A program made the translations under genes and the position numbers. The notes under the pieces are model-generated. The model saw nothing but the letters and a program-made list of their open reading frames with translations. It was not told the DNA's origin and ran no database searches. Below are positions 1 to 37,821 of a stretch of 64,000 bases of DNA, one piece after another. How positions within the stretch are numbered: position 1 is the stretch's first letter; each line of letters begins with the position of its first letter. This DNA is from Polytrichum commune (lineage: Eukaryota; Streptophyta; Polytrichopsida; Polytrichales; Polytrichaceae): positions 13,640,001 through 13,704,000 of the forward strand of contig OX485804.1 of the NCBI GenBank assembly GCA_950295325.1, read 5' to 3'.

Positions 1-2009
1 AAAGATGGTAGTTTCTCCAACTTGGCGGAAAATGTTTGGAAGTACCAATGAAAATAAATCTTAAAGAATCACGAAGTGAAAGGGGACTTTCAGCGGGATC
101 ATTGGAACAAGGGGTGAAGTGCTAACGTTTAAGTAGTGAAGAGACTTGGAAGACGAACCCTATTCCTCAAGTAACATTGTACTCGGGATGCAAGGATTAG
201 CCTATCAAAATGATATGAATAAAGTATAATATGGTGGATAGAATAGGCCATAATGACTGTAAAGTCAATTCAATTAAAGAAAGGGAAACCAAACAAAAGA
301 ATTACCAATAACCATACCAACTCAAAAAGAGAAGAAATCCAAACAAGAGAAGTGATGAGATGTACCGCAATTACACAAATAGAAACATCTAGCTCATTAA
401 CATTTGGAATAAAAACACATGAAGTCAAGGATTAGAGAATACCAAACTATTAAGGAATCGAAACCTCAAGGTAATCTGAACATAATGGATGAAGTCAAGT
501 TGGAAAGGACGGAAGCCATCAATCGAGAATAAGGGGTACAAAGAAAAGGATGCCCATGAAAAAGCGTCAAGTAGACCAAATCATGCTTCATCTTGTCTAT
601 ACCTTATGAACTAAGATATTGTCTCGCAACAACCTAATATAGATGAGGTGTAAACAAATAGGATAACACTCAAACCATGATGATAAAGAGATTGAAGTTG
701 TAACTAGGCATAATTGAAGTCGAATGTATGTATAGAGGTTTAGCCATTCAAACCATGAAAAGATGGGAATAATTTCATATGATGATTAGAGCTAGGAATG
801 AATTTACGTCCAAAAACTCTTAACCTTGACAATAAGATTTAGGGGAACATGAACTTAGAAATCTAGGACACTTACTCCTTGAGGAAATCATGAAAACTTG
901 AGAAAGGAATGTTATGCAAAAACTAAACATCAATGATAATTGCATATGACCACCTTCGTCAAAAAGAAAAATATATAGCATTCTAATTTTAGTAGGAGTA
1001 ATGTTTATGTAAGCCGGTCAGTAGCACCGTCTTAGGCTGAGGGTCAAAGGTGACCTCAACAAAACACTCAATAATATGGAGATGAAGCAATTAGCACAAA
1101 AACCGGAGTCCTGATTTAAGTACAATTTGTGCCACAACCTATGGCAGATGAGCATGAGTTGTCATTGCATCGACATTGATAGGAAAGAATTTTTGCAAGG
1201 TCCTAGTATGTGTTTTATGGTGTTCTAGGTCAATGTCCATTGCCTAATACACAACAGTGGGAAGGCCTACATGGGGTCCATGCTTGCCTCACATGTTTGT
1301 TAACATAGTTTGGGTTAACATAAGTTTAGGATCTAATAGTATATTTTTATGCATTTTTATGTTGGATACATACATGTCCATGTGCTTAGTTGCATATTGA
1401 CATGCCCATGACATGTGTTGTCTCTCATTTTTATCTTTGTATGAGCCCAAAATGAGTGCTCATATTTGTTTTATGTTTAGAATTCAATTAGAAGTGCATT
1501 TGGAGTGTTATTGAAACAATCAAAAGTATAAAAAGAGTGAGGCTTGGTGTGGTTTATGTTTTAGGCTTTAAGCCATTTTGTGTGGTTAAGTAGAAGCTTA
1601 ATGATATTAGGGAGTGTTGTGATTAAGTGAGTAGTGTTTGAGGAAGCAAGGGTAAGGTCCTTTGATTTAAATGTTTGAATTAGAACATGCTCTTGTTGGT
1701 TTAAAGGGTGAAGGTTAGTGGATAGGATAAGGTCCTACTAGGTAGGAGAATGTAAAGGGGTTTGTGGCCTTGGGTGCCCTCCCCTCCTCCTCCTCTCCCT
1801 TCCTCCTCCTCTCCTCTCTTCATTCTCTCTTCTCCTTCTCTCTCTCTCTCTCTCCTCTCTAGGATTTTGGAGCTGTTAGAGCTAAAAAAATAGTGTAATT
1901 AGGAAGGGGGTATTAGGTAAATTAGTGGAATTAAGTAGGAAGATTAGATAGGGGGCCTTGGGTAATTAGGGGAATTAGGTGGAGGATTAGTGGGGGGTTA
2001 GTTTGAAAG
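1..2009. other. Intergenic, no gene recognised
   Basis: This stretch is AT-rich, and all six frames are broken into short pieces with no recognisable domain. The first kilobase is purine-rich on the + strand, which could reflect decayed retroelement coding sequence, but no motif supports this. A pyrimidine tract (CT-rich simple sequence) lies at about 1780-1860. Nothing else can be supported. Confidence 0.5.
1780..1862 (+). repeat. CT-rich simple-sequence tract
   Basis: This is a nearly pure C/T run on the + strand ending in a (TC)n stretch. It is low-complexity sequence and no function is evident. Confidence 0.8.
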
Positions 2010-2670
2010 TTCTCGCATACTGTTACAAGGTTGTTGGGTTACTACCGAAGCTCTGGCTTAATGTTGAGAGTGCTAGACTTACAGCCGAGGTCCTGGTTTA
2101 GGATTGAGGTTGCTGACTATGTTACCAAGGCTGTTGGACTTACAGCCGAGGTTCTGGTTCAATAGTGAGGTTGCTGACTCTGTTAACGAGGCTGCTGGGG
2201 TTGCTACTAAAGCTCTGGCTTAATGTTGAGACTGTTGGACTTACAGCCGAGGTTCTGGTTCAAGATTGAGGTTGCTGACTATGTTACCAAGGCTGCTGGA
2301 CTTACAGCCGAAACTCTAGCTTAGGATTGAGGTTGCTGACTCTGTTACCAAGGCTACGGACTTACAGCCGAGGTTCTGGTTCAATATTGAGGTTGCTGAC
2401 TCTGTTAACGAGGTTGTTGGGGTTGCTACCGAAGCTTTGGCTTAATGTTGAGACTGCTGGACTTACAACCGAGGTTCTGGTTCAAGATCGAGGTTGCTGA
2501 CTCTGTTAACAAGGCTGTTGGGGTTGCTACTGAAGCTCTGGCTTAATGTCGAGACTGCTGGACTTACAGCCGAAGCTCTGGCTTAATGTTGAGGCTGCTG
2601 GACTTACAACCGATGCTCTGGCATAATATTGGGGGTGTTGACTTTGCTAAGAGGTTGTTGGATTCACAGT
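2010..2670 (+). repeat. Degenerate tandem repeat, GCTG-type units
   Basis: The phrases CTTACAGCCGAGGTTCTGG, GAGGTTGCTGACTCTGTTA and GAAGCTCTGGCTTAATGTTG recur in changing order from about 2010 to 2660. Starts of the CTTACAGCC-type phrase fall near 2078, 2131, 2239, 2299, 2359, 2461, 2562 and 2603, so short units are nested in longer, irregular higher-order blocks. The - strand frame stays open over part of it only because of the repeat periodicity. There is no evidence of coding function. Confidence 0.75.
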
Positions 2671-5050
2671 TGGAGGTCCCAGCTACGGTAGTTGAGGCAC
2701 GGAGCTTACTTAGTGCTCGGCCTTGAGTGACTGGGATAGATGACTCGGGAAGTACCGTTATAATATAAAGGGGGAATCCCATGGGTTACATTAGACTCGA
2801 AAGAGTTAGTTACCTAGGTTAGCATTTCATATTAGTTTAGATGATTAGTTCATTAGCAAGCTAGGAGTACTTTAGGATTGTGATGATTGGGAAGAGCGTT
2901 TATTAACGCTTGTAAGATTATCGTGGAATGGATTGGTGTGCAATTATGGATGGGAAATGTCATGGGATCACACTAGTTTGGTCAAATGGAGTTGTGGAAA
3001 TATGAATGTGATACCCATTCCCTCACCCGGACTAGGACGCTTAAGGGTGGGAGGTTTGGCCTCACACTTTGCATGGACACAATTAAGTTGTGTATTTCTC
3101 TTATTCTCCTTGATTCCGGTTTTGCATATTATTGCTTTCTAAAATTTCAACATATATCCTTTATAATTATCAACATTTTTGTGTCACATTCCTTATAAAA
3201 AAATCATTTCACTCCCTTGCAATTTTAATTATTTATAGTAAAAATAGCCCTCTACATCGGTACATTTTAGATATTTCATTAGAAATTCCATTTTGATTCA
3301 ATTACATTGAGTGTAATGGCACTTTAAATGACTAAACTAACAAAATAATCAACACAAGCCCAAAATGATTCTTCTAAGTACCCAAACTCACCAATGTATC
3401 AGGATCATATGTGATTATAAGTTTTTTTGGAGGTTTTATGAAAAATCTAAGCATTTTGTATGTGATGCATTAAACAAAATCATGGAAATAATCCCTAGGG
3501 GTGGACTCTTCTTCGAAACCTAAATCTTTTGAACCTTCATTCATTTTTCATTAGGCTTAATCTCCACACTTATTGTTCATTATTGTTTTCTCAGTCATGT
3601 GTGATTCTGTCCTATATGACGATTTCTATCACTTTAATTTCATACCTACTTATACAGTGTTGAAGCTCTTTAGCTTTTGTGATAGTCTTTTTCTTTGGCA
3701 ATCGTCTTTTGTATCTTGGCAATAGTCTTTCAATGGATTATCATCTTATTAGGGTTAGTATCTTCTTCCTTCATTAAAGTAATCATTTAATGTCATCAAT
3801 CGTAATTCAAATTTCATTGCTCAAAAGATGAATTCCTTCTCTTATTTCCTTTTATCATTTTCCTATAAACTAAACTCATTCATGAATTATCACACATATA
3901 GCATCTCAAACTGCAATCTATGCACATATTAAAATAAACATATATATATATAGTATTCTTCACTAACACAAATCTCAATTAGCTTAATCTTTATCACGTT
4001 AGTGCATTAAGTATAATATTTCATGAAATTCATAATTTAGTCTCTAGGCTTAAGGACTATGGACTTGCATCCCCATCTATCAACAACCCTAATATTTTTA
4101 ATTTTTTAGTTTTTTCCCCTTTCTACATTGTAACTCATTGTATCGTTTATTATGAAGGCTACAATTTTTTCATTTATGCTAATCCTCTCAGTGTTCCACT
4201 CACTGTCATGCTAACTACCTTCTAATGTCCTCACCTCACACAAGCCATTGGTAGTCTCTCATGGCTATGGCCTTTCTCATGCTTTCATAGTCTAACTCCC
4301 TAACTAAGATCCATGGCTTCCTTTATTAGGAACTTGAGACTATTGCCTCATTTTCTCAATGTAAAGTTCACACCTGATTATTGCTAACATCTAAAAAATT
4401 TGTATCACTCTTCGTTGATTCATTTCTTCCATCACATCCTTTAACTTTAGATTTCCATAGACATTCTCTATTTCATTTATGATTTAGTCTTTCAATCACA
4501 TGTTTTATCACTAGCAGTTCTTTCACTTAAGTTACACTTTGATTGTCACAATATTTATTAAGAACATTCATGCATTCAAAATCAATTTCGTTCACTCATT
4601 TTGCTTTTGATATTTCAAGTAATTTAGTTCAACTATGCGGGTGATATTTTGATTATGCAACCACTTCAGTTTACTCTCGCCTCAACAATACCCCTTCTTA
4701 CTCACGTTAGTTTCTACGTGTTATAGAGAGTCCATCCCTTGGGGAATCTTCTCAAAATAGCAAGTACATTAATATATTAATGCAATTGATTACATGGCAA
4801 CATCAAGTGATTCATACATTACTAATTAGTGTTGGGTGCAAGGACAATAAAGTGGACGACTCTTGATCCATGCATAGGTTTAAGTGGATTTTATTCAAAT
4901 TATGTACTAACTTTGAATTTTGTTTAAATTATATGTAAAACATTTTGAAAGCATAATGATGTATGAATCCAAGTAATTTATGTTGACACAACTATCTCAT
5001 AAAAGTGTACATAATTTAGAAGACGGCGCAAGTGGTGTGCAAATGGTGAT
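2671..5050. other. Intergenic, no gene recognised
   Basis: This is AT-rich sequence with many stops in all frames. A T-rich block from about 3140 to 4800 shows no domain, tRNA-like or repeat structure that I can support. The left flank of the large transposon begins at its end. Confidence 0.5.
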
Positions 5051-5060
5051 ATTAAGAAAA
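5051..5060. repeat. Target-site duplication, left copy
   Basis: ATTAAGAAAA directly precedes the left terminal inverted repeat and is identical to the 10-mer at 19758-19767. Confidence 0.88.
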
Positions 5061-5108
5061 CAGGAATGCTACGATGTGAGCGGTGGCAAATCTCGTGAGC
5101 AGAAAATC
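5061..5108 (+). repeat. Left terminal inverted repeat
   Basis: It contains GCTACGATGTGAGCGGTGG and then GTGAGCAGAAAATC. Both blocks recur inverted at 19697-19757. The GTGAGC(G/A)G core is repeated within the end, as expected for a transposase binding site. Confidence 0.85.
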
Positions 5109-5297
5109 GAAATTTAAAACTCCATTTAACGAAAGTTAGGACCCCTATGACCGTGGATTTTGCACATATTTCAAGTTTAATTTTGGAATTATGAGGCCGA
5201 TATTTATGGAGTGCCTAATTTTTAGGACCAAAAGTTTCTAAAAATTACCAACGAGGCCCTATGGCCGTGGGAAAATTCAGTGTGGTTGAGAAGATGG

Positions 5298-5760
5298 TGG
5301 ACCTATGGGAAGAGGCCTCGGATCCGAGGCCTCTTAGTTGTGGGTAGCTTATGCTTGAAAATCAAAATGTTATGTATATTTGAGTTGGCTACTTGTCTTT
5401 GCATTCGGCCATTTCTTGTATGTGTAGTGCATGAGGAGGACCTATAGGAAGAGGCCTCGGATCCGAGGCCTCTTAGTTGTGGGTAGCTTATGCTTGAAAA
5501 TCAAAATGTTATGTATATTTGAGTTGGCTACTTGTCTTTGCATTTGGCCATTTCTTGTATGTTCTAGCATGAGGCGGACCTATAGGAAGAGGCCTCGGAA
5601 CCGAGGCCTCTTAGTTGTGGGTAGGGTGTGCTTGAAAATCAAAATGTTATGTATATTTGAGTTGGCTACTTGTGTTTGCATTTGGCCATTTCTTGTATGT
5701 TCTAGCATGAGGAGGAGGTTTGGAAAGAGGCCTCGGATCCGAGGCCTCTTTTTTGTGGGT
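5298..5760 (+). repeat. 138-bp palindromic tandem repeat
   Basis: Four head-to-tail copies each carry a 22-bp palindrome, GAGGCCTC on both sides of a CGGATCCG core, at 5312-5333, 5451-5472, 5589-5610 (one mismatch in the core) and 5727-5748. The spacing is 139, 138 and 138 bp, and the last copy is partial. Because 138 is a multiple of 3, one + strand frame stays open across three units and would give a 46-residue repeat. I regard that frame as a by-product. The array lies about 240 bp inside the left end of the large transposon, between the terminus and the 3' end of its methyltransferase gene. Confidence 0.9.
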
Positions 5761-5954
5761 AGGATATGCTTGAGAAATCAAAATGTTATGTGTATTTGGT
5801 TTGGCTACTTGTCTTTAGATTGTCTACTAGTTGACGACCACAAAAGTGTAGTGTTATTTGAGAACAACGACAAGATGCATTCAACAAGATAATTGGAATA
5901 TTGAAAACCACACCACACTTTATAAATCCAAATACCAATCAATCAAACCAAAAA

Positions 5955-8900
5955 TCAATCAACAATGACGTTGTCACTACTAGATTCCCTACTTCCAAAG
6001 ATACTCCCCTCATGGCCGCCCTCATCTGAAGAGGAATCTAAGGTATGGCATTCATTATCCACCTCTGCAAGAACATCGAAGAAGTCTAAGGCACGGGGGT
6101 CATAACGTGGAGACGGGGTACTAGCTTTGCTAGGAGAAGGTTGTGCCGCTAGTACCATCGCCATATCATGGGCATAGATTGGCAAAGAGAATCCCTTGGT
6201 AGGCGTACCAAACACATCCGCTCCAAGGCCAAGTCTGAAAACAAGCATGAAAATTGTAAGAAAAAGGATGGAAAATGTAAAAGCTAAGTGGACAAGGAAA
6301 AGAAGCAACTTAGAAGGTCATCATACTCACTTACTGCGAGGACTTTGGCCTCGATCGCTTCAAGGCCGGTGGCCTCTTCTGCGTGCCTTGTGAAGCCTGC
6401 GTGGAAGCAACAACAATGGATGGAGCCTTCACCGCAGGCTTAACACTCTTAAGTGGCTTAAGGACACGGTTGAAGGTGTCCTCGTCCTCCTCAAGAGCAA
6501 CAATATGGCGCCCAAGCTGCTTGCATGTATGGATAGAAGTCCCTGTTGCGGAGGAAATGTTAGCAAAGGAAAAAAAAAAAAAAAAAAAAACTTAGAAATT
6601 GAAAACTTGGATATGATGGCAAGTGAAGTAGGACATACCAACGCCCGCATTAACGTCCACCACAACCTGTCCAATGTCCGTAGTGGCCATTATCAAGGAG
6701 GACATGAAAGAAATATCTTTCTCCCGGGGACCACGCCAAGCTTTGGAGCCGTCCATGAGAGGAGTTACAGTATAATTCATAATCGCATCATCCATATCGA
6801 GCTCAATGCCAAGAGCCTTGAGCTCATTGGCATCGCGAAGGCGGAATGACGAGTGCCGGGGCCGCTTATCAAGGTCGGATCCAATTGTTTTGGTGGCACG
6901 AACAAGTAAGACAACCTGGAAGAGGTTGGTGGTCTTGTCCACATGTTTAGGTGAATGAAGGCGAAGACGGTTGACTCCCAGCCACTCCTTAAAGATCGTG
7001 AACCCAAAAGCAGCGAAGTGGTCTTGAATGCTCTCCTTGAAATCACCATTGTCATCTGCATGAAAGAGGAGGAGAGCTCCATCGTCATGCAGGATCTCAT
7101 CCGCAAAATCGAAGAGCTCACCTAGAAAATCGGTATCCAATGCATTCCAGGAAGGTACACTATAGGAAGGATCGGAGACATTGGGTACAGGCAGGTTCTC
7201 CGGGATGTCGGCAATGACAAGATCAGCCATGCCCACATCTAACCTCGCAACGCCTAGAGCTCTCCGCGGATAGGAGGGTGGAAGAGAAAGAATGAAGTTG
7301 GAAACCTCCTGAAAATGATGACGTTGATGAAGGATAGAGGCATTCAAGATGCATTCTAAAACAACGGGAGGACGCCTAGAAGATGAAAGAATGGGCGGAG
7401 GAGGTGGCCTGGATAGAGTAGGAACTTCACTAAGAGATGGAGTAGATGCAACTGCCGCCTCAGGTGAAGCAGGGGGAGGGGGATCATCCTCCACAGTCTT
7501 GAGCTTCCTCGCGCGCTTCTTGAGTGATGATTCGTCTTGAGTTGCACGCTTCCTCCTCTTGGACTTCTGTGTGTTGGCCTCATCGACAGTCGCAACAACC
7601 TCATCCGCCTCCGGAAGTTGACTGTCAAGGAGAACAACCTCATCGCTTTGAGCAGGAGGCAGGGAAGGTTCTCCACCGGAGAGCCGAATCTTCAACTCCG
7701 CCTCCTCATCCGGTTGCCACGTCCTCTTACATTCCAAGTACCAACAACACTCGCGGAGATGCGGGAGGGAGAAGTTGCGCTTTTGAGCCGGGGAAAATAT
7801 GAAGGTAGGTGAAGAGGAATCAGACCATGCATCAAGAAACGGAGGGAGCTTCTTCAAAGCCTTCTTCTTGAAGAGCTCATGCTTGATGTACCTTGACAAC
7901 GAAGGAGTGAGGCCAATTAGCAACTTAGAAAACAAATGGTTTGAAATAAATGAGGTGAACACAAGATTTTCCAACTAACGTACCTACAGATTAAGCGCTT
8001 GACAATGTTGTTAGCGCCTTTGACATCCTTCCACCACGTCCCCTTTCCGTATATATCTGACCCTGAGAAGTGACCAATGAACGCCTTATCCCAGAGACAG
8101 ATTCGCCACTTCTCCAAGTAATCCGGCAATGAATCAACTTCCACGTCTCCGTCAAGCCCACCCAAGGCATTAAGTATATCGGGTAACTCCTTGACCGCGG
8201 CATCCTCTAGCTGTGGATAAATTCAAGGCCAAGATAAGAATTGGCACAAAAGGAAGAGTTGAAAGGTAAGGATGGATAAGGAGTATAGACGTACCCCTGC
8301 CCAAAACGTAGCTTTATTGAGCCAAGGTTTCAAGGTGTCCTCGCTTGCAGGACTTTTGGGAAACCGGATAGCTTCATGATTGAAACTTCCACTGTTCCAC
8401 CACTTTAACCAACGGACTTTATACTCTGGCTCCACTGCAACTGTGGCAATAAGTTGCAATTTCTCCAATGTCATCTCAATCTTTTGAGAATGGTGGGCGC
8501 TATAATGCCTAGTAATCTGAAACACTTGCAATAAAAAAAAAAACGAAGTAAATTTAAGAATATATTCTTAGAAAGTGCTGCAAAGAATGCTAGCAGTAAG
8601 CCCTCACTTGAGACCTCTCCCATAAGCACATTCAAATCAAATCTATTTCAACTAAAAACTAACCTCTTAGGCCCCCTTCAAACCTCTCTGGTTAGCACCC
8701 TAACCAGAAATTTCTCAAAATACAACCATACAAGCCCTCACAATAGCCCTCAACAATAAGCTAAATCAAATCGATTTCAACAAAATGAATACCTCTAAGC
8801 CCCCCTAAGCCCTCCCCCACAAGCACCTTAGCTAGAAAATGCGAAAAAAAACCATCCCAGCCCTCACGTTAGCCCTCACCTCAGACCAAATTGAAGCAAA

Positions 8901-11900
8901 AAAAAATAACATGAGAGGTCCCCAAAGTGGCTACCCTGGGGCTGTCGGATCCGATAGAGGCCCAGGGCCCTCCCTTTGGAGCTCTCCCACTAGCACCTTA
9001 ACCAGAAATTCAAAAATTAAAACCATACAAGCCCTCACATCAACCCTCATTCATAACCAAAATCAAATCAATTTCAACTAAAAACAAGCCTCTAAGCCCC
9101 CCTTCAAACCTCTCTCATTAGCCCCCTAACCAGAAATTCAAAAATTAAAACCATACAAGCCCTTACCTCAACCCTCATCCATAACCAAAATCAAATCAAT
9201 TTCAACAAATTCGAAGCCTCTAAGCGCCCCTTCAAAGCTCTCTCATTAGCCCCCCAACCTGAAATTTCACAAAATACAACCATACAAGCCCTCACAATAG
9301 CCCTCAACAATAAAGACCTTTCCCATAAGGACATTCAAATTTAATTCAACCAAAACGTACCTCCTCTAGGAACTGTTTTCCAAGGGCGGGGTTTGCGATT
9401 GATTATTGTTTGTTAAACTTGTGCCCAAGTTCCTCAGTCGTCTTCTTAATCACAGCATCCAATACCTCACCCAACTTGTTCCCAGATTGCTCCTCTGGAG
9501 GAACTTCCTCTTTGTAGATTTGGGTTGCCTCATCTACCGCATCGGCTATCTCTTGCTGAACATATATTCAAAATTGTAAGATCATGATTAAGAGTAATGA
9601 ATGCGAAGTAGAAGGTTGAGGAATTTGGAGTGACTTACATTGAAAATGAAGGATACCATAAGGTCTTGGGTCAGCGGGTACCAAAGGCTCTTGGGGCCTC
9701 TACTCTTGCACGCTTGGAATTGCTCCTCCGTCAATAATGGCTGGTAGTAGCTAAGATCATACGAATCGTATTTTTGAATGCGGTGTAGAGTGTGTACGAG
9801 GCTAGTTTTAACGTGAGCGGTCTGGTTAGCCCTATTGCGGTTGAGACAAATGCCATTAGATGCCAATAAAAAAATGAAAGAAAAAACGATTTGAAAAACT
9901 AACATACTTACTTGTTGATGTCGTGCATTGCGTTAAGGACATCCCCACGCCCACCCGTTGTGTTGAGGACAACACATTCTGGGCAACCATGCTTCTCATA
10001 CCAAAGTGCATCGTCCTTGTGATCTGATTCGATATACTCCTTCCACGCAAGCAAGCGGTGGTTACCATCATACACGAAGAACATACATCCACTAAGGCTC
10101 ATCAAGTCCTTATCCGCGCGTAGAAAAGACTTAAACTTATCATTTTCTGCAACCCAAAGCTCTTCCCATTCACGCCTGTCTTTCGCAAAAATGAATCGAT
10201 TATCTCCAGACTCATTTGTAGTAGACACGTACAAAGTGGCAGACCCAGTTCGGTATCCAAATTGAAATGCCGCCATGAACTTTGTAACGTCGCTGCGGAG
10301 GGTTGGGCGAACCAATGGCATGTGAATCAACCTGCAGAGGGGGATTCTCATAGAGGACTTTTCTACCGGTTGTATCCTCATCCCTCAACAACTGAGAAGC
10401 TATCTTTTTTTAAATTGTGGCGAATCCGATACTCCATTGCACGAACACCGACATCCGATTCTGCAGGTGAGACGCAGAGTGGCATCCCGGATGTATAGGG
10501 TTCGCTACTACCTGGTGTAAGCCCAATATTTTTAGCAAGTGACAACGGAGACCCTTGTTCCTTATGCTCCTCAACACTAAGGGATGACTTAGCACCATTG
10601 CGAACCCCAACATCCAAAGACTCTCCATCCCCCACCATCTCAATGATCTCCTGAGAAGCAATTAGTTACAAAGGTGAGGACCAGCCAAATGAACAAAATA
10701 TGCATAAGAATGACCACTTTAAAAGGTTCCGAAGTGGGAACCCATTTGACCTCTCCCAAAAGCAAAGTCAAATAATTTGCAACTAAAACAAACCTCTCAA
10801 GCCATCACTTCAGCCCGCTCCCACTAGCACACTAGTTAGAAAAAAAAAAAAAAAAACCATACCCGCCCTCACCCATAAGCAAAGGCAAATCAATTTCAAC
10901 CAAAGCAAACCTCTAAGCCCCCCTTCAAAGCTCTTCCACTAGCACCTTAACCAGAAATTCCAGAAAAAAAACCCATCCAAGCCCTCACATCTGCCCGAGC
11001 CCATAAGCTAAATCAAATCTATTTCAACAAAAAGAAAACCTCAAAGCCCCCCTAAGCCCTCTCCCACTAGCCCCCTAACCAGAAAATTCACGAAATAAAA
11101 CAAAACAAGCCCACACATCAGCCCTTTCTCAAAGCAAAATCAAATCAATTTCAACTAAAAACTAACCTCTTAGGCCCCCTTCAAACCTCTCTCATTAGCA
11201 CCCTAACCCGAGATTTCACAAAATACAACCCAAAAAGCCCTCACAATAGCCTTCAACCATAAGCAAAATCAAATCAAATTCAACAAACACCAAACTTCTA
11301 AGCCCCCTAAGCCCTCTCCTACAAGCACATTAGCTAGAAAATTTGGAAAAAAAACCATACAAGCCCTCACCTCAGCCCTCACCTGAGACCAAATTGAAAA
11401 TAAATAAATAAATTGAGAGGTCCCCAAGATGGCTTCCAATGGGCTGTCGGATCCGAAAGAGGCCTAGGGCCCTCCCTTTGGAGCTCTCCCACAAGCACCT
11501 TAGCTAGAAAATTCAGAATTTAAAACCATACAAGCCCTCACCTCAGCCCTCATCCATACCAAATTGAAGCAAAAAAAAATATCGTGAGAGGTCCCCAAGG
11601 TGGCCACCAATTGGCTGTCGGATCCGACAGAGCCCTGGTCCAGCAGTGCCTGGGAGTGATTCCAGGGACTGCCAAGGTTCAAACAGGCATAACGTCGTCA
11701 ATACTTGTCTGAATGAATCAAGTGAGGGGTCCATCGGCATCTACGTGAAGCGTAGATGAAGATGGAGTGGTTGGTTGTTCAAATCAGACATAATACAAGA
11801 AAGTTATGATGGTCTGAAGCTGCTGGGTCCCCAAGATGGCTTCCAATGGGCTGTCGGATCCGACAGAGGCCTAGGGCCTTCCCTTTGGAGCTCTCCCACA

Positions 11901-14696
11901 AGCACCTTAGCTTGAGAATTCAGAATTTAAAACCATACAAGCCCTCACCTCAGCCCTCACCTGAGACCAAATTGAAACAAAATAAATAAATTGAGAGGTC
12001 CCCAAGATGGCTTCCAATGGGCTGTCGGATCCGACAGAGGCCTAGGGCCCTCCCTTTGGAGCTCTCCCACTAGCACCTTAACCAGAAATTCAAAAATTGA
12101 AATCAAACAAGCCCTCACCTCAGCCCCCATCCATAACCAAAATCAAATCAATTTCAACTAAAAACAAGCCTGTAAGCCCCCCTTCAAACCTCTCTCATTA
12201 GCCCCCTAACCAGAAATTCAAACATTATACAACCATACAAGCCCTCACATCAGCCCGAGCCCATATGCAAAATCAAATTGATTTCAATAAAATGAATACA
12301 TCTAACCCCCCCTAACCCCTTCCCCACAAGCACCTTAGCTAGAAAATTTGAAAAAGAAAACATCCAAGCCCTCACATCAGCCCTCACCTCAGCCCAAATT
12401 GAAGCAAAAACAATATCTTGAGAGGTCCCCAAGGTGGCTACCCTGGGGCTGTCGGATCCGACAGAGGCCCAGGGCCCTCCCTTTGGAGCTCTCCCACTAG
12501 CACCTTAACCTGAAATTCAAAAATTAAAACCATACAAGCCCTCACCTCAACCCTCATTCATAACCAAAATCAAATCAATTTCAATAAAAAACAAGCCTCT
12601 AAGCCCCCCTTCAAACCTCTCTCATTAGCCCCCTAACCAGAAATTCAAACATTATACAACCATACAAGCCCTCACATCAGCCCGAGCCCATATGCAAAAT
12701 CAAATCGATTTCAATAAAATGAATACATCTAACCCCCCCTAAGCCCTTCCCCACAAGCACCTTAGCTAGAAAATTTGGAAAAAAAAAAACATCCCAGCCC
12801 CCACGTCAGCCCTCACCTCAGCCCAATTGAAGCAAAAAATATATATCTTGAGAGGTCCCCAAGGTGGCTACCCTGGGGCTGTCGGATCCGACAGAGGCCA
12901 GGGCCCTCCCTTTGGAGCTCTCCCACTAGCACCTTAACCTGAAATTCAAAAATTAAAACCATACAAGCCCTCACCTCAGCCCTCATCCGTAACCAAAATC
13001 AAATCAATTTCAACAAATTCGAAGCCTCTAAGCCACCCTTCAAAGCTCTCTCATTTGAACCCTAACTAGAAATCTCACAGAATACAACCATACAAGACCT
13101 TACATCAGCCCGAGCCCATAAGCACAATCAAATCTATTTCAACCAGATCTAACCTCTCAAGCCCCCCTTCAAAGCTCTCTCATTAGCAACTAACCAGAAA
13201 TTCCAGATAAAAAACCATACAAGCCCTCACATCAGCCCTCACCCATAAGCAAAATCAAATCTTCTTCAACCAGAACTAACCTCTCAAGCCCCCCTTCACA
13301 GCTCTTTCGTTTGAACCCTAACTAGAAATCTCACAAAATACAACCATACAAGCCCTCACATCAGCCTGAGCCCATGATCAAAATCAAATCTATTTCAACA
13401 AAAAGACAACCTCTAAGGCCCCCTAAGCCCTCTCCCACAAGCACATTAGCTAGAAATTTTAAAAAAAAACCCATGCCAGCCCTCACGTCAGCCCTCACCT
13501 CAACCCAAATTGAAGCAAAAAAAAAAAACTTGAGAGGTCCCCAAGGTGGCTACCCTTGGGCTGTCGGATCCGACAGAGGCCAAGGGCCCTCCCTTTGGAG
13601 CTCTACCACTTGCACCCTAAACAGAAAATTCATAAAATCTAACCATACTAGCCCTCACTTCAGCCCTGTCCGAAAGCAAAGTCAAATGGATTTCAACTAT
13701 AGCCAACCTCTAAGCCCCCCTTTGGAGCTCTCAAACTAGCACCCTAACCACATATCACATTCAAATCTTATTCAACCACATTATACCATTCTACTTAAAA
13801 ACAAAACAAAAAAACCTCTCAGACCTCACTTCAAACCGCTCTCAAAGGCACCCTCAAATTAAATTTATACCACATAATAAACATTTGCGAGGTTCTTTAG
13901 TGGGCTCTCCACGGTCTGTCGGATCCGACAAAGCCCCAGGGCACTCACTTCGGACCTCTGTAAGGAGGACCCCAAAATCGGCTCAAAAATTACCTCTTAT
14001 ACCTCACTTGAAAACTCTCACAGGACGACCCCCATATCATATTACCACAAAATGAATCTTTTAGACCTCACCTCAGACCTCTCCACTGGGCTACCACTGC
14101 CCTTCCCTCGAGTCTCTCCCCCTCTCCAACTCGTGGCTGCAACCCTGACCGCTGAGTGAAATCCTCGTATGCAGAGGAAAACCCTAGTTCTAAGATTTGT
14201 TGTAATGCGAAGAACGATGGTAGGTTAATGTTGCGGCAGTCTTGTTCCCTTCCCCTTCCGACGGTGTCATTGTGACCACCCTTTGGATGGTCAGTGCTTC
14301 GACAAGCCCGCACTTGCTGCCTTCGCTAGCTCACGATGACTACCCCTAATTTCTAGTGCATATATGTTTTCATCGACTTGAGGTTCATACCTGGGTCTCG
14401 CAAATTCTCGATAGATCATGTGATTTTGGGAACTCCACTTGTCTGGTCGTACCCACTCCAACTCCCTTCCTAGCAATGTCTTCACCACTCTGAGTCTGGC
14501 TTCTCCGTGTACGAGACCTTGACCGTGTGTGGTCTGGGGAGAATTCCAATGCCTTCACTGTGTTGTTTAAGTTATCATATGGTTGTTTTGGCTGTCTCAT
14601 CCTAGATGCCCTTATTTGCTTCCTGTTTGAGAAAAATGCCTTCCTCCTCCTCTTCGCCTTTGGTTTCACTAACTCTAGTGGCGAAGACCCTGTCAT
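5955..14696 (-). CDS. ParB-like domain + permuted DNA-methyltransferase-like protein, nine exons, three lesions
   Basis: My splice model (- strand, all GT-AG and in phase) is 14696-14391, 10650-9912, 9831-9639, 9555-9361, 8516-8295, 8210-7984, 7891-6639, 6542-6335 and 6234-5955, about 1206 residues if the lesions are ignored. Exon 1 is the least certain: it is a basic, nuclear-signal-rich leader joined across a 3.7-kb repeat-filled intron. Exon 2 has the ParB/sulfiredoxin-type core FVYDGNHRLLAW, preceded by PLVRPTLRSDV. Exon 7 has nuclear-type basic runs (KSKRRKR), a Pro-rich linker, and the motif IV position DLVIADIPEN followed by LGELFDFADEILHDDGALLLF. Motif I, VVDVNAGVGTS, spans the exon 7/8 junction and is followed by GRHIVALEEDEDTF. 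Motif IV before motif I is the beta-class N6-adenine/N4-cytosine methylase order. DIPE replaces the catalytic (D/N/S)PP(Y/F/W), so activity is doubtful. Lesions: in-frame TAA at 9403-9405, one extra base in the A7 run at 10405-10411 and one in the C5 run at 10339-10343 (gene strand). Confidence 0.75.
8560..9350 (-). repeat. Intronic minisatellite, first block
   Basis: It lies in the intron between the exons at 9361-9555 and 8295-8516 of the methyltransferase-like gene. Units of roughly 110-130 bp repeat phrases such as AAGCCCTCAC, CAAATCAATTTCAAC, CTCTCTCATTAGC and ACCAGAAATTC. One copy contains the palindromic core TCGGATCCGA (8945-8954). It is the same family as 10700-14060. Confidence 0.85.
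10700..14060 (-). repeat. Intronic minisatellite with recurring CTGTCGGATCCGACAG palindrome
   Basis: About 3.3 kb of diverged units repeat phrases such as CATACAAGCCCTCAC, CAAATCAATTTCAAC, CCCCCTTCAAA and CTAACCAGAAATTC. TCGGATCCGA, usually inside CTGTCGGATCCGACAG and followed by AGGCC-AGGGCCCTCCC, occurs at 11447, 11618, 11854, 12025, 12452, 12882, 13564 and 13919. By my model the block forms most of the first intron of the methyltransferase-like gene. A 180-bp non-repeat segment (about 11640-11820) interrupts it. The CGGATCCG core is shared with the 138-bp array at the left end. Confidence 0.88.
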
Positions 14697-15489
14697 GTAA
14701 CTGACCCGACTTCACAAATTCTACACTGCCCTCCTTTGTGAACATCTCCCTATCAATGTATGTGTCTCGCCTGGGTTACATCTACACTTATATTCCATCT
14801 CATAACCTCCTTCACATAATCTCGATGTATGGTGATTACAGTCTAGTTGCTATAAACATATACGGAATCATAAAAAGGAACACTTATAGAATGAACACCG
14901 ATGTTTAATAACATGTATTGAAATCATCCAGGAAAGATCTAAATTTAAGGAGCATCATGCTTTATAAAAATAATGGATGATAGTACACATGACAATACAT
15001 ATTTCAAACGAAACTAAATGAAATAAATAATCTGTATAGCCATAAATTGACGATCCTCTTCCAACTAAACTAACCTATTCTGGCTTAAAGGTGAATGCTC
15101 TACCCTTGCCCACTAATAAAGAAACACTTTCCTTTAGGGTGTCCCTTACATCCACTAAATGGTTCACGTGGTCTGGTGTATTAATAAATTCGCGAGTCGG
15201 CATCCAACCTCATTGTTTGGTTTTGATATATCTGGTTTGGATTGGCATATGATCATGACTAACTTAAGTAAATGCTGTAGTGCATTTTCAATTCTTATTC
15301 ACATTGCTATAATGAATCGGCTTATTATTCCCCTACTAATCCAAGTCCCCGCCGTCATTCACAGATCCCATCTTGCCATGGCCTTCTAATCACAACACTA
15401 TATACACCTCCCCACTTTGTGCTAATCCTTAAGTCCATTGCCCATTTGGCCACACCCTTCTGTGTACTCGCATTTACATTCCTTCTACA
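14697..15489. promoter_or_regulatory. Divergent intergenic region of the large transposon
   Basis: This is the 0.8-kb space between the proposed start of the methyltransferase-like gene (- strand) and the transposase start codon (+ strand). The two genes are head to head, so this should hold both promoters. It is AT-rich in the middle (about 14830-15060). I cannot place a TATA box or transcription start with confidence. Confidence 0.5.
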
Positions 15490-18400
15490 ATGGCCACCAT
15501 CCGAGCACTGCACCATTCCATCCCCCTTATGATCCCTCTTGGAGATGATGGTCTAGCCAAAGTCGTGGAGTCGTTCCTTAGTCTGAGGTTTAGATTCCAC
15601 CCAGACTCAATTCATGTCGAGGAAGAGGTCTTTGATGACAACGGTGACTTGAGTCACACTGTCCTTCAGATGTCCTTTCGCATTGACGATGGTAGGGTTT
15701 GGTTCTTGCTCCCTCCAAAGTACAAGGCCATAGGCGTCACCGAGTCGGAGATGGCCACCACTACTGTGTTGCTAACACCAGGCGTGTCCCTCACCTCCAC
15801 CACGCAGGCTCCTCTTCTGGCAACGGTCAAAAAGGAGCCCGACATCCAAGAGGTTACCTTGCTCAGTGATGACTATGATGATGATGTGCCACCTGCCTCT
15901 GACTTTGCCTCACTTACCCCACCTCCATCGCAGGATCAACCCTTCATCAATCCTCTCAGGATTCCACACTCGCCTACTGTGAGTCAACCACCTACTTCCA
16001 GACCCCCAGTTCACCCAGGTGTCTCCATAGATCGTCCCAGTGTTGTCCAGCAATTGAAGTTGCTTGCAACCCTACCAGGGTCCAAGAACATCCTCAAGAG
16101 TATTGATTATGAATTTGTTAGGCATGAGAAGGTTGACTTCCTCCCATCTGTTTTTGACGGCGACGTCATCTTTGAGTTCCCTCCTCTGGGAGCTGATGCT
16201 CCCCATTCCCATGCTAGACTCATGTTCGGAATGGACAAGCGTTTCGACGGTCATGCTTGGTGTAGGACAAAGACGTCTAACATTACCAATGATCTCGGCT
16301 TGACCTTCCAGTTTTCATGTTGTGTTGGCCATCTCTGCTGTCATAACGAGGGATGTGATTATCTCAACCGCCCCAATCGAGCCACTGACGTCAACGAGAC
16401 CGAATGGGAAGGTTGTACCGCCTCACCCTTCACCGCAGATGCTGATCCCCCAGCTGAGTCATCTCTCGTTTGTAAGGTCTGTAAAACACCACCCTATTGT
16501 CTTGATACTTGCCAGGCTAAGATGTACTATGTTCTTGGCAGAGGTGACATGACCCGTGCATGCATCCATATGGGTCATCACCATCACCCCGTTTCGCAAG
16601 GTGTCTGTAGAGAGTCTAAGGTCAAAATTCATGATCTCATTGGTAGAGAGGTTGAAAGGACTCCCACCGCCACCAACTCTGCCATTGCATTGGCTGCAAG
16701 TAAAGAGTTCCTGGCCAAGTATCTTCTACGCACGGGATCTGATCCCAATAAAGTTATGGACCTGGAGTCCATGAAGTTTGTCATGGACAGGTACCAACAC
16801 CTCAGCACCCCGAGTATTCGAAACACTGTCACTTCCTTCAAGCGCATTGGGCGAGGGGGGATCATTGACAGCATCACCGGACTCAAAGGTCATAGCAGTT
16901 GGCCCTATGTGCAAGAAAACAAATTCCCAGGCCAAGGAAAGCTATTGGAGAAAGTCTATGTGTTCAAGATGTCTAAGGTGGGCCCTGGCTCTAGAGTTGA
17001 CATTGTCAGGAGAATGCAACCACACGGTGATTTGCAGGATGCTTGGGTCATGTTTGACCATGTCAAACGTGTCAAGGGGTGGACAACCATGGCTTGCCAT
17101 GTCTATGACTCGGCCTACTGCCGGGTTATGACTATTGCAGTATGTGATATGCAGTCTGAGGATGTCACGGCGCAAAGCCTTCTTTGGCATGGGCTCAATG
17201 AAGTTATGCTCAGACATGGCATTGCTAAAATTAACTTCAAAGGGTTCATGGCGGACAGTGCACAGGCCAATTGGAATGCAGTTAGGATTATCTATGGCAG
17301 CGGTGATCCCAAGGTTCCTATGGAGTCTCGCGAGAGGACATGTCTATTGCATTGGACAGTGTCTATGGAGCGCCACACTGCCACCCACATCAAGCCCGAC
17401 CTCCAACAACAACACAAGTTGTTATGCAAGCAGTACAAGGATGCCAAGACTCCCGAGCAGTCCGAGTCCCGTTATCTTGCCATCCGGGCATGGTGGCTTT
17501 CCTCTGGAGCTGCATCCGAGGAAGGAATCAAGGACCTTGATACATGGCTTGCATTCTGGCATTTTCGTTACCGTCAATGGGGTGGTTTCATGCAACTAGT
17601 GAGTACCCACCCACTTTCTATTTCACTTTTTGGTGTCAACTTTTTTTTTGGTTTTTTGGTGTCAGTTTTGGCTTTTAGCGTGTTTTTGTGCAAGGCGTAC
17701 TCACCACATTTTATTGACTTCTCTCAGAATTTCACAGATTCTGAGTTGGCAGAGACGCCATCTTGCAACCTCTCTGAGACAGTCCATAACAAATGGCTTC
17801 AGCAGTCTGGAAACCGTGGCTCTGATCTATATGTTGCGACCGTGGATGATTTTGTGAGGGCGTTCATGCAATGTACGAACTACTACGCCTACTTGAAGGG
17901 TGAACGGTCTGGCACTGGCCCAGGAAAAGAAGAACTCCGCCTTCGTGCTACACAACGATCCGGTGACGCCAAGAGAATTGTTGCAGCCCTCGAGCACATG
18001 CCTGGAGCAGAGCATTGGTGCACCCGCAAACCCCAACTCGAAGGAGAGGAGGTCTTTGGCACCACCAAGCGCAAACTTGATATGCCCCCTGGTTCTGAGC
18101 AGGATTCACATAGACCCGACAAGGTCAGCTTCTCTCATCCACGAGTGAGCACTAGGTCAACCAAGGCACACACTGATTCCGCCACACCATCAAACCTGCC
18201 CCTCACACAATCCCCCGAGAAATCGATTCCACAACGGGTCACCCACGTCAATAACATTCAGGAGACCCACTGCGATGTCTCCAAGTGGCACATTTCTAGA
18301 TTGCCCAAGACTTCCGCCAAGGCCTGCTTCGCCATGCAAGCTCGCACAAAGACCAAGTGCACCCAGAAGATCGTTCGGCATGGTAAAAGTACCCCAACTC

Positions 18401-19137
18401 CTACGTACACCGGCTACATGCGCGACTACAAGAAGAACAAGGAATTCTTGACACAGTTCTTCTTGTGCAACGACGACATTGAGAGATGTGTCAAAGGCAC
18501 TAGGAGGAAGTGGGTGCAGCACCGTCCGGATGTCCCGGACGTCTGGCCTGTCCTCACTGGGACAAACCTCACTCTCCAGGAGGTTCTGGCCCTTGAAGAA
18601 GGGGGATTCCAACTTCAGCAGCGTCAAGATGTGTCACCCATAAGACTCTTCGGCGACTCCTCCAATGTTGCTTCATCCATGGCCGAACTCCCTACCCCGG
18701 CCCAAGCCAATCAATACCCTACGCTGAGGTTTGGAAAAAAGATCCGGCGCAGTAACAACGGACCATGCGTCCAACAACGCAACAAGTGGGAGTCAGCCCT
18801 CAACGTCGACGGTCAAATCACCTCCGTCACAATGATACCTCACCCAGGGATCAGGTGCATCATTTTGTTCCAGTCCCGAAAGAAGGCTAAGGTTGAAGAG
18901 TACCGTATCACTATCAGCACCTTCCCGTCGTGCACGTGCCCGGATTTCGTGGAGATGTCAGCAAGAGCACTTGGGAAGCGGCGCCCTTGGGTGAACTGCA
19001 AGCACTTGTACTTCATCTTCCGTGTGACCTGCAACTTGGATCAATACCAAGACACTTTCATCCATGCTCCGAGCCTTAGTTTCAATGAAGTGAAGCACCT
19101 CCTCAAAAGTGGCATCATGAAGCATGTGGGACCTTAG
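15490..19137 (+). CDS. Mutator-like transposase with SWIM zinc finger
   Basis: The open frame is 1215 codons. It very probably contains one in-frame intron, 17599-17727 (129 nt, donor CTA^GTGAGT, acceptor TCTCAG^AAT, T-rich). Removing it leaves about 1172 residues and eliminates an out-of-place hydrophobic stretch. Residues 1-270 are variable and Pro/Ser-rich. Cys/His clusters at about 277-372 (CCVGHLCC, CKVC, CIHMGHHHHP) look like a DNA-binding zinc region. The transposase core runs from about 505 to 650, with Asp523 or Asp540 as first acidic residue, FMADSAQANWNAV with Asp589, and the CLLH motif at 618-621, matching the D..CxxH layout of MULE transposases. A basic, Ser/Thr-rich linker follows. 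The SWIM finger is Cys1148-Thr-Cys1150 with Cys1170-Lys-His1172. The third acidic residue was not located. It would catalyse excision and insertion of the 5061-19757 element. No stop or frameshift was seen. Confidence 0.82.
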   Translation: MATIRALHHSIPLMIPLGDDGLAKVVESFLSLRFRFHPDSIHVEEEVFDDNGDLSHTVLQMSFRIDDGRVWFLLPPKYKAIGVTESEMATTTVLLTPGVSLTSTTQAPLLATVKKEPDIQEVTLLSDDYDDDVPPASDFASLTPPPSQDQPFINPLRIPHSPTVSQPPTSRPPVHPGVSIDRPSVVQQLKLLATLPGSKNILKSIDYEFVRHEKVDFLPSVFDGDVIFEFPPLGADAPHSHARLMFGMDKRFDGHAWCRTKTSNITNDLGLTFQFSCCVGHLCCHNEGCDYLNRPNRATDVNETEWEGCTASPFTADADPPAESSLVCKVCKTPPYCLDTCQAKMYYVLGRGDMTRACIHMGHHHHPVSQGVCRESKVKIHDLIGREVERTPTATNSAIALAASKEFLAKYLLRTGSDPNKVMDLESMKFVMDRYQHLSTPSIRNTVTSFKRIGRGGIIDSITGLKGHSSWPYVQENKFPGQGKLLEKVYVFKMSKVGPGSRVDIVRRMQPHGDLQDAWVMFDHVKRVKGWTTMACHVYDSAYCRVMTIAVCDMQSEDVTAQSLLWHGLNEVMLRHGIAKINFKGFMADSAQANWNAVRIIYGSGDPKVPMESRERTCLLHWTVSMERHTATHIKPDLQQQHKLLCKQYKDAKTPEQSESRYLAIRAWWLSSGAASEEGIKDLDTWLAFWHFRYRQWGGFMQLVSTHPLSISLFGVNFFFGFLVSVLAFSVFLCKAYSPHFIDFSQNFTDSELAETPSCNLSETVHNKWLQQSGNRGSDLYVATVDDFVRAFMQCTNYYAYLKGERSGTGPGKEELRLRATQRSGDAKRIVAALEHMPGAEHWCTRKPQLEGEEVFGTTKRKLDMPPGSEQDSHRPDKVSFSHPRVSTRSTKAHTDSATPSNLPLTQSPEKSIPQRVTHVNNIQETHCDVSKWHISRLPKTSAKACFAMQARTKTKCTQKIVRHGKSTPTPTYTGYMRDYKKNKEFLTQFFLCNDDIERCVKGTRRKWVQHRPDVPDVWPVLTGTNLTLQEVLALEEGGFQLQQRQDVSPIRLFGDSSNVASSMAELPTPAQANQYPTLRFGKKIRRSNNGPCVQQRNKWESALNVDGQITSVTMIPHPGIRCIILFQSRKKAKVEEYRITISTFPSCTCPDFVEMSARALGKRRPWVNCKHLYFIFRVTCNLDQYQDTFIHAPSLSFNEVKHLLKSGIMKHVGP

Positions 19138-19696
19138 CGTGGATAACTATAGGAGCTAGGCTGCCCCCCCCCTTATTTATAAGTTGTCGCTAAGTATTAT
19201 TGCGTTGAGTATACTATAGTATGAGTGCACGTTTTCCGAAAATATTGCTGATATATCAGACCTATCATTATCTACATGATGTGAATTGTATTCGTTTTTA
19301 AATATCTATAAAGGTTTCTAAATATTTATGGGTCTCTCCTTCCAACAATAGTTTTAGATGTTATTGAATGGTACGAGTTTTGCTACTTTGATTGAATGCT
19401 TGAATTTTTTGATTTAGAATTTTCTCTTACGTTGTGACCATAGCCTATGATTAACCGGCTCTCACCATAATATGGACAGTCAAAAGTTCCCTAGTTTAAG
19501 TAAATCATGTCAACTAGTCTCTCTGAAAGGTACCCTAAAACCAAGTCTTTGTCCTGAAAGCCCTCAAAATTTGCACGGAAATAGGTCCATCATTTTTACT
19601 AAAAAAAGAGGTCCCACAAATTTCTATTTATATTTTCTAAATTTGGAAATTTTATTACTATAATTGGAAAGCGTTGACTTTTTTCTGCTCACCGTG
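19138..19696. other. Right subterminal region of the large transposon
   Basis: It lies between the transposase stop and the right terminal inverted repeat. It holds a C8 run just after the stop and AT-rich sequence, with no gene. It probably contains the transposase 3' untranslated region and polyadenylation signals. Confidence 0.5.
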
Positions 19697-19757
19697 AGCA
19701 GATTTTCTACTCACCGCTCACCGCTCGCGTCCCACCGCTCACACGGTAGCGTCGTTG
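19697..19757 (-). repeat. Right terminal inverted repeat
   Basis: Read on the - strand it gives GCTACCGTGTGAGCGGTGG, then extra copies of GAGCGGTGAG, then GTGAGTAGAAAATC. It is a little longer than the left end because the GTGAGCGG motif is duplicated. A further CGGTGAGCAG follows just inside, at about 19685-19695. Confidence 0.85.
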
Positions 19758-19767
19758 ATTAAGAAAA
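19758..19767. repeat. Target-site duplication, right copy
   Basis: ATTAAGAAAA directly follows the right terminal inverted repeat, in the same orientation as the copy at 5051-5060. This is what staggered-cut insertion of a DNA transposon produces. Confidence 0.88.
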
Positions 19768-31388: not shown

Positions 31389-34221
31389 ATAGTTGAAATC
31401 TGCACACACCCACCAACCCCATCACATCCAACACAACTGACCACTCCCGTACACATAAAAAACAACCCAATAAAATACTCTATACACTCAATAATAGACC
31501 ACTGCATAAAACCAACTACAGATAAATACAAAATTATAAAAAACCAACATATATACCTATGTCAATGGGTACTACCCAATGGAACAATATATATCAAAAA
31601 CCTTCCACAAAGAGAATTATTCCCCTACAATCTCCCAAGAGTCATACAACACAACTCAAACTTAATACTCACATACTACACCAAAACACAACATAAAATA
31701 TACAAAAACATCATGAACGGAAATGACATGTTCACCCAAAACAAAGACCCCAAGCACGTCTCTCCTCCCCTAAACATCCCACTCGTGAAAATCTCAACAC
31801 ATGAATGTAACCCTGAAAAAGACATCAACACTAATACAAACAAAATCCAAATGCAAAATGATTATGCTCATATCTACGATGAAACAGGTAAACGCATTAT
31901 CACCATTCCACACAATAGACTTGTATGGCTATGGAACCAATACAATCGTACATTACATCAACCACACGACCTAATACCCCCTACTCAAACATTTGAAATC
32001 GAAATAACCTGGCTATATCAAACATACAAACACAAAATACCGAAAAATAATCCATTAAAAAACGCACACCATTCTATGCCCAAAACACTATTAGACTACA
32101 TCACAACATCCTTTGAAATCACACACTCTTATTTCTCATCCCCAGTCACATGCTCAACCCATCTAACAAAATTCTTCTCACCATTTCCTAGAGATAAAAT
32201 CTTCGGGTCCATCGGTAACGCATTCTCACACAAGTGGCAAGGAATAGGATACGCCCACCCACACAATGAAATTGAAGCCCAAAAAGCAATCCATTGGGCC
32301 AGACTAGCAGCGAAGCAAGATCCATACACCACCACCATACTTATCATCCCATACCCGAATTGGTACCAGAACTTTACACCACATTTAGGTCCCTTCCCAG
32401 ACACACATGTAATCACTCAAATACCAGTAGACACCACCAAATATGAAGAACCTACAAGACCACAAGAATCCAATGAGCCACGTGTAGAACCACTCACCAT
32501 AAGAATCCTATGCGTACATCACCAAAACAATAGTATCAGCAATATAGAACAAATGAACACAATAAGAAATATATGCAACAACCTGAACATATCCCGCACA
32601 ATCACCCAAATTGCCCCCCCTACCCCACAAAATCTAGAAGTCAACAAATGTAAAACATGGAATACCCTCACCTACCCAAATCCAAGCACACACCTACATA
32701 ATACAATCCCACAAATTCCCAACTATGAAAACGAAACACCACTCAAATTCCCCTCCAAATATTGCTTCTACACAGATGGATCCTTTAACCCCCCCAAAAA
32801 GATAGGAGATAGTTGGCGGAGAGAAGAAGTTGGATACGGTATATATAACCAAGAAAAAATTATCAAACTTGCACTACGACTACCAGGCCTACAAAACATA
32901 TTTCGAGCAGAACTAATGGCCATGCACCATATCCTTAAAATAATAATGAAATGACTTCCCAAATGAACCAGCACATATTTTCACAGACTGCCTTAACGGC
33001 CTATATGTAATCAAAACCCAAATAAAACACCCCACACTACACAATAACCACCCCGATAAAACTATCTTAGAAGAAATAGTGAACTTTCTTACACAGAGAA
33101 CCCAACCCACAACACTATACAAAGTAAGAGCACATGCAAACATCAAAGGTAACGAAGAAGCCGACACACTTGCTAAAAAAAGGACATCAAAAGAACACTA
33201 CAATGCCTCTCAACCATACGAATTTGGCCACTCAACGCCGTACTACCAAAGAGACACATGGCCATCAATGGGAACAACCCCAGACAAAGGACCCATTAGA
33301 TTCCTAGAAAAACATCTAGTAAAGTACAATATGAATATAAATTTAGAATTGATCCCTGTAAAATACCCCAACATAGATAAATGGATAGCCAATGATAAAA
33401 TAGATAATGAACTATCAAATAAATTTTGGACAAACAAAAACATAACTGACTCCCAAAAAACATGTCTTCTAAAAGACACGGTCAATACATGGGAAATGCC
33501 AGGAAACATTTGTTCTTCGGAAGAGAAGCTTTTCCATCAATTACATGCCCCATATGTGACTCAACAGACCCGGATACATGGCTGCATGTACTTCTAAAAT
33601 GCAAACAACACCACATTCATGCCCTCCGTACCAAAAGACACAATAAAACAATATGGGAATTAAGAAAACTTAAAGTGTCATCAAAAAAAGTCAAGATGTT
33701 ATATTCTCATGAATGCAGGAACATTCAATAATAAGCCCCCAGAAAACACGGTCCCTTCATGGATATTACAGTGTATATGTGGCCAACAAAGATGTCATTG
33801 CAATGCCATATTCAAACCAGATCTTCTATGTGTAAAAGGACTACCATATCAATCCTCACCCCCAATAGAACCTAATGACAACCTAACAATACAATTCATT
33901 GAATTTACATACTGTAACGATAGAATACATGATGAAACTATAAACCGTAAAATAGAAAAATATAAACCATTAATGGACAATATTGCCAACAAAGGTTGGA
34001 AGATAGACCCACTAATTGTCATCACTGCAGGCGCTAGGGCTGCCACACATATCCCCTCTATGGATAACATTGAAACAACATTTAAAACCCCTAAGCAGAG
34101 CATCAAGAACACATTTGAGGCAATTAATGTCATCGCTATACAATATGCTATGTCCATAATTATGCACAAAAGAAGGATAGAAAATAACGAGCCAATACCA
34201 CTTGACACACAACTACCTTAA
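31389..34221 (+). pseudogene. 5'-truncated retroelement: MTase-like region, RNase H, PD-(D/E)xK nuclease
   Basis: One reading path opens after a TGA at 31386 and continues to TAA at 34219-34221 with three frame changes. The first part (31389-32954) ends inside RNase H. It holds FFSPFPRDKIFGS, WQGIGYAHPHN and ILIIPYPNW, in the order of Dam-type N6-adenine methylases, with YAHPHN where NPPF/Y would be expected (tentative). RNase H has all four acidic residues: YTDGSF, FRAELMA, IFTDCLN and NEEADTLAKK. A zinc motif follows (CPIC, HVLLKC, HHIH, RHNK), then a nuclease-like end with KPDLL, QFIEFTYCND and KYKPLM, the REL/PD-(D/E)xK layout seen at the C terminus of several non-LTR retrotransposons. 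Frame changes: TGA at 32952, near 33480, and an A7 run near 33676-33690. No reverse transcriptase is present, so the 5' part is lost. The + strand is strikingly A+C-rich. Confidence 0.75.
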
Positions 34222-37815: not shown

Positions 37816-37821
37816 AGCTCG

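Follow-up and report, generated by a model that had tools for sequence, protein, structure and literature searches.

The window, the whole 64,000-nucleotide stretch of Polytrichum commune DNA analysed here (C2:13640001-13704000 of a 408-Mb genome that has seven large contigs), carries an insertion at 5061-19757 bounded by a 10-bp target duplication, ATTAAGAAAA (5051-5060 and 19758-19767). Its end CAGGAATGCTACGATGTGAGCGGTG and the reverse-complemented other end, CAACGACGCTACCGTGTGAGCGGTG, are identical at 19 of 25 positions (counted by eye). The insertion contains two genes of opposite orientation (Table 1): a transposase gene on the plus strand, with an ORF open at 15433-19137, and a multi-exon gene on the minus strand (about 10384-5955), termed gene 2 here, with at least nine conserved coding blocks, the borders of which were placed by conservation, not by RNA. 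A transposon of this arrangement, as described in the original prediction, is confirmed at this position. The transposase gene was given an in-frame intron because matching residues are absent there in other families. An Rfam scan of the element returned one match, below threshold.

Table 1. Features of the element, in window coordinates.
Feature	Position	Strand	Basis
Left target site duplication, ATTAAGAAAA	5051..5060	.	End comparison among copies
Left element end, imperfect inverted repeat with GTGAGCGG	5061..5110	+	End search and copy comparison
Tandem repeat, 138-bp, 3.7 copies, 3' of gene 2	5299..5816	+	Repeat scan
Gene 2, final conserved coding block, stop included	5955..6236	-	Conservation
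Gene 2, block following SAM motif I (GTSIHTCKQLGRHIVALEED)	6334..6543	-	Conservation
Gene 2, main exon, putative permuted amino-methyltransferase domain; motif IV DIPEN at about 7190-7210, motif I DVNAGVG at end	6637..7893	-	Conservation, PDB profile comparison
Gene 2, conserved coding block	7980..8210	-	Conservation
Gene 2, conserved coding block (WWNS)	8292..8519	-	Conservation
Gene 2, conserved coding block; in-frame stop at about 9403-9405 in the window copy	9358..9561	-	Copy comparison
Gene 2, conserved coding block	9637..9842	-	Conservation
Gene 2, ParB-like exon (GNHRLLAW motif)	9911..10384	-	Conservation, PHROG scan
Tandem arrays between the genes, periods of 117, 128, 171, 256 and 427 bp	10750..13499	.	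Repeat scan
Intergenic stretch adjoining the transposase start; belongs to the exchanged cassette, family B' being 83% alike	14067..15306	.	DNA comparison
Transposase gene, probable in-frame intron at about 17599-17727, SWIM-like C-x-C...C-x-H near the C end	15490..19137	+	ORF and alignments
Right element end, imperfect inverted repeat with GTGAGCGG	19697..19757	-	End search and copy comparison
Right target site duplication, ATTAAGAAAA	19758..19767	.	End comparison among copies

The element had also been taken to be open and autonomous, and this holds for the transposase ORF but not for gene 2: the window copy is probably not fully functional, because its gene 2 has an in-frame stop. Stops in this block occur in the window copy and in one other of six compared copies of its family (family A), and the block is open in the remaining four. 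Elsewhere in the window, consecutive ORFs with an RNase H-like stretch (31389-34221) presumably belong, by motif, to a LINE-type retrotransposon. Host exons at 37713-47157 resemble, we assume, plant PI4-kinase alpha; a PDB sequence search with 38385-39647 gave no match.

A large family of divergent gene pairs

The left 340 bp of the element were found near full length at 91-100% identity in at least 40 places, the window included (40 of 275 candidates scored), and the right 358 bp in at least 40 places, one of them split in two pieces (40 of 81 candidates scored). In all 11 copies from which both ends were cut out (the window and ten others), the element is flanked by a 10-bp duplication, and every duplication has a different sequence. 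This length follows from placing the boundary at the aligned ends; the longest run shared by the two flanks according to our script is 10-14 bp, because the run may extend into the element ends. In one copy (C6:39.02) the duplication was read by eye, not by the script, and in another (C1:28.65) the first base of the element deviates. The same boundary rule gives 10-bp duplications in one copy each of families B, B' and C, with raw shared runs of 14, 12 and 10 bp, respectively; these three families have the common end GGGGAAAG. Joining the flanks of the window copy without the element yielded 40 scored matches, two of which are the window's own flanks. The other 38 all cross the junction uninterrupted at 75-81% identity and are thus paralogous empty sites: the element inserted into a repeat, the other copies of which are empty. 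The prediction of a complete transposon is therefore borne out, with shared ends in further copies, differing duplications and empty sites.

The pairing of the two genes was compared by coordinates, scoring 150 of 1262 candidates for the ParB-like exon and 150 of 1580 for the transposase. Among the 150 transposase places, 83 have a divergent ParB exon within 25 kb (median 8.9 kb), 2 have one in another orientation and 65 have none listed; 200 random placements gave a mean of 3.3 pairs and a maximum of 9. The numbers seen from the 150 ParB places are 80 divergent, 1 other and 69 with none listed. Discovery of the two genes apart in other copies would have spoken against the prediction; instead they stay together, and gene 2 is transcribed opposite the transposase in the window and in 83 of 85 pairs. 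The element is one copy of a large family carrying a transposase and a ParB/DNA-methylase-like helper gene.

Both genes are present in families A, B', B, C, D, E and G, most of which are 29-54% alike in gene 2. Family F (L036/L045) was left out of the trees and of the exchange argument below as probably a nested fragment, because its transposase piece and gene 2 share a strand. A further ORF, in frame 2 and perhaps of another element, adjoins the family C transposase at L044 1-3540; we take it to resemble a MADF/Myb-like protein with KLSDKWEKLRSTYSKIKKLRNQMG. Even in very diverged families, gene 2 is shown to accompany the transposase in divergent orientation, and we propose that these elements form a two-gene DNA transposon superfamily.

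Identity of the transposase and gene 2

Motifs conserved in the transposase include FDHVKR, ADSAQANW, RERTC..HW, ETVHNKW and a C-terminal CxC...CxH, and DDE-triad-like motifs with C..H between the second D and E are kept in the family alignment. The element had been called MULE-like. MULE target site duplications are 8-11 bp long, a range that includes the 10 bp found in family A (11 of 11 copies) and in one copy each of B, B' and C; the inverted ends are also shared with MULEs, and so, we assume, is the layout, with its DDE-like order (D..., D...C..H, E) and C-terminal SWIM-like motif. The difference lies in the profiles. PF10551, the MULE domain, has no Pfam match in any transposase piece scanned, and in a genome-wide PF10551 search the window transposase was not among the matches listed (150 of 271 candidates scored). 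An hhalign comparison with four MULE pieces from the same genome gave a probability of 0.4%, a test of low power with so few sequences. SWIM exceeds its Pfam cut-off only in family C (20.3 versus 19.6 bits), falls below it in G (14.0 bits) and B' (12.3 bits), and has no Pfam match in the transposase pieces of A (window and L009), D and E. Assignment by profile thus failed in all three comparisons (Pfam, genome-wide PF10551 and hhalign). Since there is neither a PF10551 match nor an hhalign signal, the transposase appears MULE-like only in layout and duplication length, and membership is unproved.

Gene 2 is conserved exon by exon at 30-50% identity. The window protein alone has no Pfam or PHROG match, and the identity of its main domain comes from relatives. 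The family G homologue matches PF01555 (N6_N4_Mtase) at 32.4 bits (cut-off 26.7) over the whole domain, family B gene 2 matches a PHROG DNA methyltransferase (E 5.3e-05), and a profile of family members finds CcrM as the best PDB match (E 0.0032 over 160 positions), with gene 2 D[IL]PEN falling on DPPYN. As in CcrM and the other beta-class (permuted) amino-methyltransferases, motif IV precedes motif I. Gene 2 differs from these in that DPPY is replaced, motifs X and I have diverged and the domain is fused to a preceding ParB-like domain, in a transposon of a eukaryote. The motif IV sequence is D[ILV]PE, outside the standard (D/N/S)PP(Y/F/W), in seven families (A, B', B, C, D, E and F), and two otherwise near-identical family G copies diverge at this very motif (DIPY versus DIPD in L058 5227-6957 and L059 2079-3812, respectively). 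Motif I, DxxxGxG, is kept in several families and has lost one glycine in C (DVAAATG) and E (DVTASSG). Separately, two small contigs, C10 and C12, carry strong N6_N4_Mtase matches and are perhaps bacterial contamination.

The first exon contains GNHRLLAW, which we take to be a ParB-like motif. Matches to the ParB-like phrog_1033 are weak (E 0.045 and 0.06) and occur in two of five ParB exons; the exon has no ParB match in Pfam, NCBIfam or PDB, and a search with the ParB alignment of viral contig and genome contig collections confirmed no relative. The prediction of a gene that is both ParB-like and methyltransferase-like is supported: gene 2 is predicted to encode a permuted N6/N4 amino-methyltransferase domain, matched above the Pfam cut-off in one homologue, behind a ParB-like domain that is weakly matched.

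The claim that this architecture was previously undescribed is too strong, because algal ParB and methyltransferase genes opposite a transposase are in print. A passage in PMC12477816 reports, for Sola1-1 of Ectocarpus, a gene with ParB and N4C/N6A methyltransferase parts in opposite orientation to the transposase; for ParB-methyltransferase transposons of green and red algae it refers to Iyer et al. 2011 and Petroll et al. 2025. As presented there, Sola1-1_Ec32 and the cited algal elements resemble ours as large DNA transposons with a second gene, opposite the transposase, that joins a ParB-like domain to an N4C/N6A-type methyltransferase domain. The printed example is Sola-1, whereas the transposase here is SWIM-like with 10-bp duplications; motif IV here is mostly D[ILV]PE, and many families occur in one genome with gene 2 exchanged between them. 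In the literature searched, with most subscription journals outside coverage, no ParB-methyltransferase gene was found in a SWIM-type transposon that makes 10-bp duplications.

Exchange of gene 2 between families

The two genes differ in the relationships that they indicate. The window copy of A and B' are 93% alike in gene 2 but 57% alike in the transposase. For B and B' the order is reversed, at 43% in gene 2 and 90% in the transposase, and for B and C the figures are 41% in gene 2 and 81% in the transposase. IQ-TREE trees of the two genes from eight families conflict: under a simple LG+G4 model, with groups picked after the identities were known and with two long branches, A+A2+B' is rejected by the transposase data in the AU test (p 4e-7), its log-likelihood being lower by 217, and the groupings rejected by the gene-2 data are B+B'+C (lower by 178, p 1e-41) and B+C (lower by 126).

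DNA comparison locates the change within B'. Positions 537-1304 of B' resemble the left arm of B (78%); 1554-5680, 6893-7094 and 9712-10921 resemble A (83-92%); and 11393-15319 and 15631-15898 resemble the B transposase (84%) and right end (74%), respectively. The crossovers are narrowed to about 250 and 470 bp. The exchanged cassette is not one unbroken block, because the B' stretches between the A-like pieces have no match to A and hold a 170-bp array of their own. At the sequence level, this shows B' as B-type ends and transposase combined with an A-type gene-2 cassette, gene 2 having been replaced with ends and transposase unchanged.

The recombinant form is widespread. Among 45 gene-2 places (from 99 rows listed), 18 have a B-type transposase within 40 kb (one of these with an A-type transposase also close by), 9 have an A-type only and 18 have neither. 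Of 64 transposase places scored, 19 carry a transposase that is B'-like (97-100%); gene 2 is paired with 17 of them, and the other two lie near partial gene-2 matches (by eye). The pair at C4:46175923 (transposase 90%) suggests an older recombinant too. Judged from these comparisons, gene 2 is a swappable module. Its exchange between transposon families, which the original prediction did not include, appears to be new here; none was found in the literature searched, most subscription journals being outside coverage.

What gene 2 may do

The transposase gene and element ends are inherited together, as end recognition requires, and insertion produces the 10-bp duplication observed. Gene 2 would be unnecessary for end recognition; because it is replaceable without change to ends or transposase, it most likely acts elsewhere. 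We propose that its protein has its target in non-coding, tandemly repeated DNA of the element itself. Such an activity has a precedent: passages in PMC5735166 and PMC10398659 report that in Arabidopsis the VANC proteins lift silencing and bind motifs that recur in tandem in the non-coding DNA of VANDALs. Both systems have a transposon-encoded accessory gene and non-coding tandem repeats that differ between related families; VANC is not described in those passages as a ParB-methyltransferase, and gene 2 is likened to it by role, not by sequence. Tandem arrays lie between the genes in six of our seven families. Two points count against the proposal: the array sequences differ from family to family, and family E has no long array between the genes. 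An imperfect palindrome at 11670-11829 (fold z -5.8), common to A, B' and C and present as six repeats in C, was rejected as a gene-2 operator because it is dispersed and twice paired exactly 6,057 bp apart, as in LTRs. It has 739 candidates, and of the 40 scored several lie outside any recognised element; it is probably part of an LTR.

That a helper gene is exchanged like a cassette suggests a portable job of its own, such as resisting host silencing. We regard it as an even call that these elements form a two-gene superfamily with a portable gene 2 that sets the epigenetic state of the element and resists silencing, much as VANC does in VANDALs. With D[ILV]PE in place of DPPY, its methyltransferase fold would more likely lack ordinary catalysis or perform an altered chemistry; catalysis may yet occur, since part of SAM motif I is retained and DIPY stands in one family G copy. 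A bolder version is offered tentatively, as less probable than its opposite: gene 2 would derive from a ParB-methyltransferase of altered catalysis and serve as a module for anti-silencing or self-regulation, families would renew themselves by reassortment-like module exchange, and B' would be the youngest burst seen here because host control no longer reached its new module.

Homology to CcrM and PF01555, the motif I retained in several families and the DIPY of one family G copy would also fit an active N6-adenine or N4-cytosine methyltransferase that marks element DNA after binding it, an activity proposed in a passage of PMC12477816 for the algal genes. We consider this doubtful, given D[ILV]PE in A, B', B, C, D, E and F, DIPD in the second G copy and the glycine missing from motif I in C and E. 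Gene 2 might instead help in transposition as such, by choosing targets, synapsing ends or protecting strands, as accessory subunits do in other transposons. Its close and old association with the transposase would agree with this, but such a role is unlikely: B' kept B-type ends and a B-type transposase through the exchange of gene 2, and went on to spread to the 19 scored places noted above.

Pack-type capture is common in plant DNA transposons, and gene 2 could in principle be a captured passenger with no function for the element. This is very improbable, for gene 2 is present in all seven families compared, its exons are individually conserved, and between A and B' dN/dS is 0.15 in the methyltransferase exon and 0.23 in the ParB exon. 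Gene 2 is thus shown to be under purifying selection where this can be measured (A versus B'), deeper comparisons being saturated. Within A, gene-2 dN/dS between copies is 0.26-0.41, on 11-14 changes; transposase values are 0.13-0.45 for exon 1 and 0.21-0.35 for exon 2. Counter to a reading of purifying selection are several A copies at 0.35-0.45, on few changes, and a value of 1.28 for transposase exon 2 of a broken copy (L008).

A little-known class of helper gene, in print for algae in the literature searched, is thus now found in a genome with many families and young bursts, which make its function testable. Cassette exchange separates gene 2 from end recognition and provides a natural experiment, in which the helper differs but transposase and ends do not, and a burst follows. 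Should gene 2 indeed counter silencing, VANC would no longer be the sole anti-silencing system, and the second would have evolved independently; should it methylate, the transposon would carry a 6mA/4mC writer of its own, unusual in its active site.
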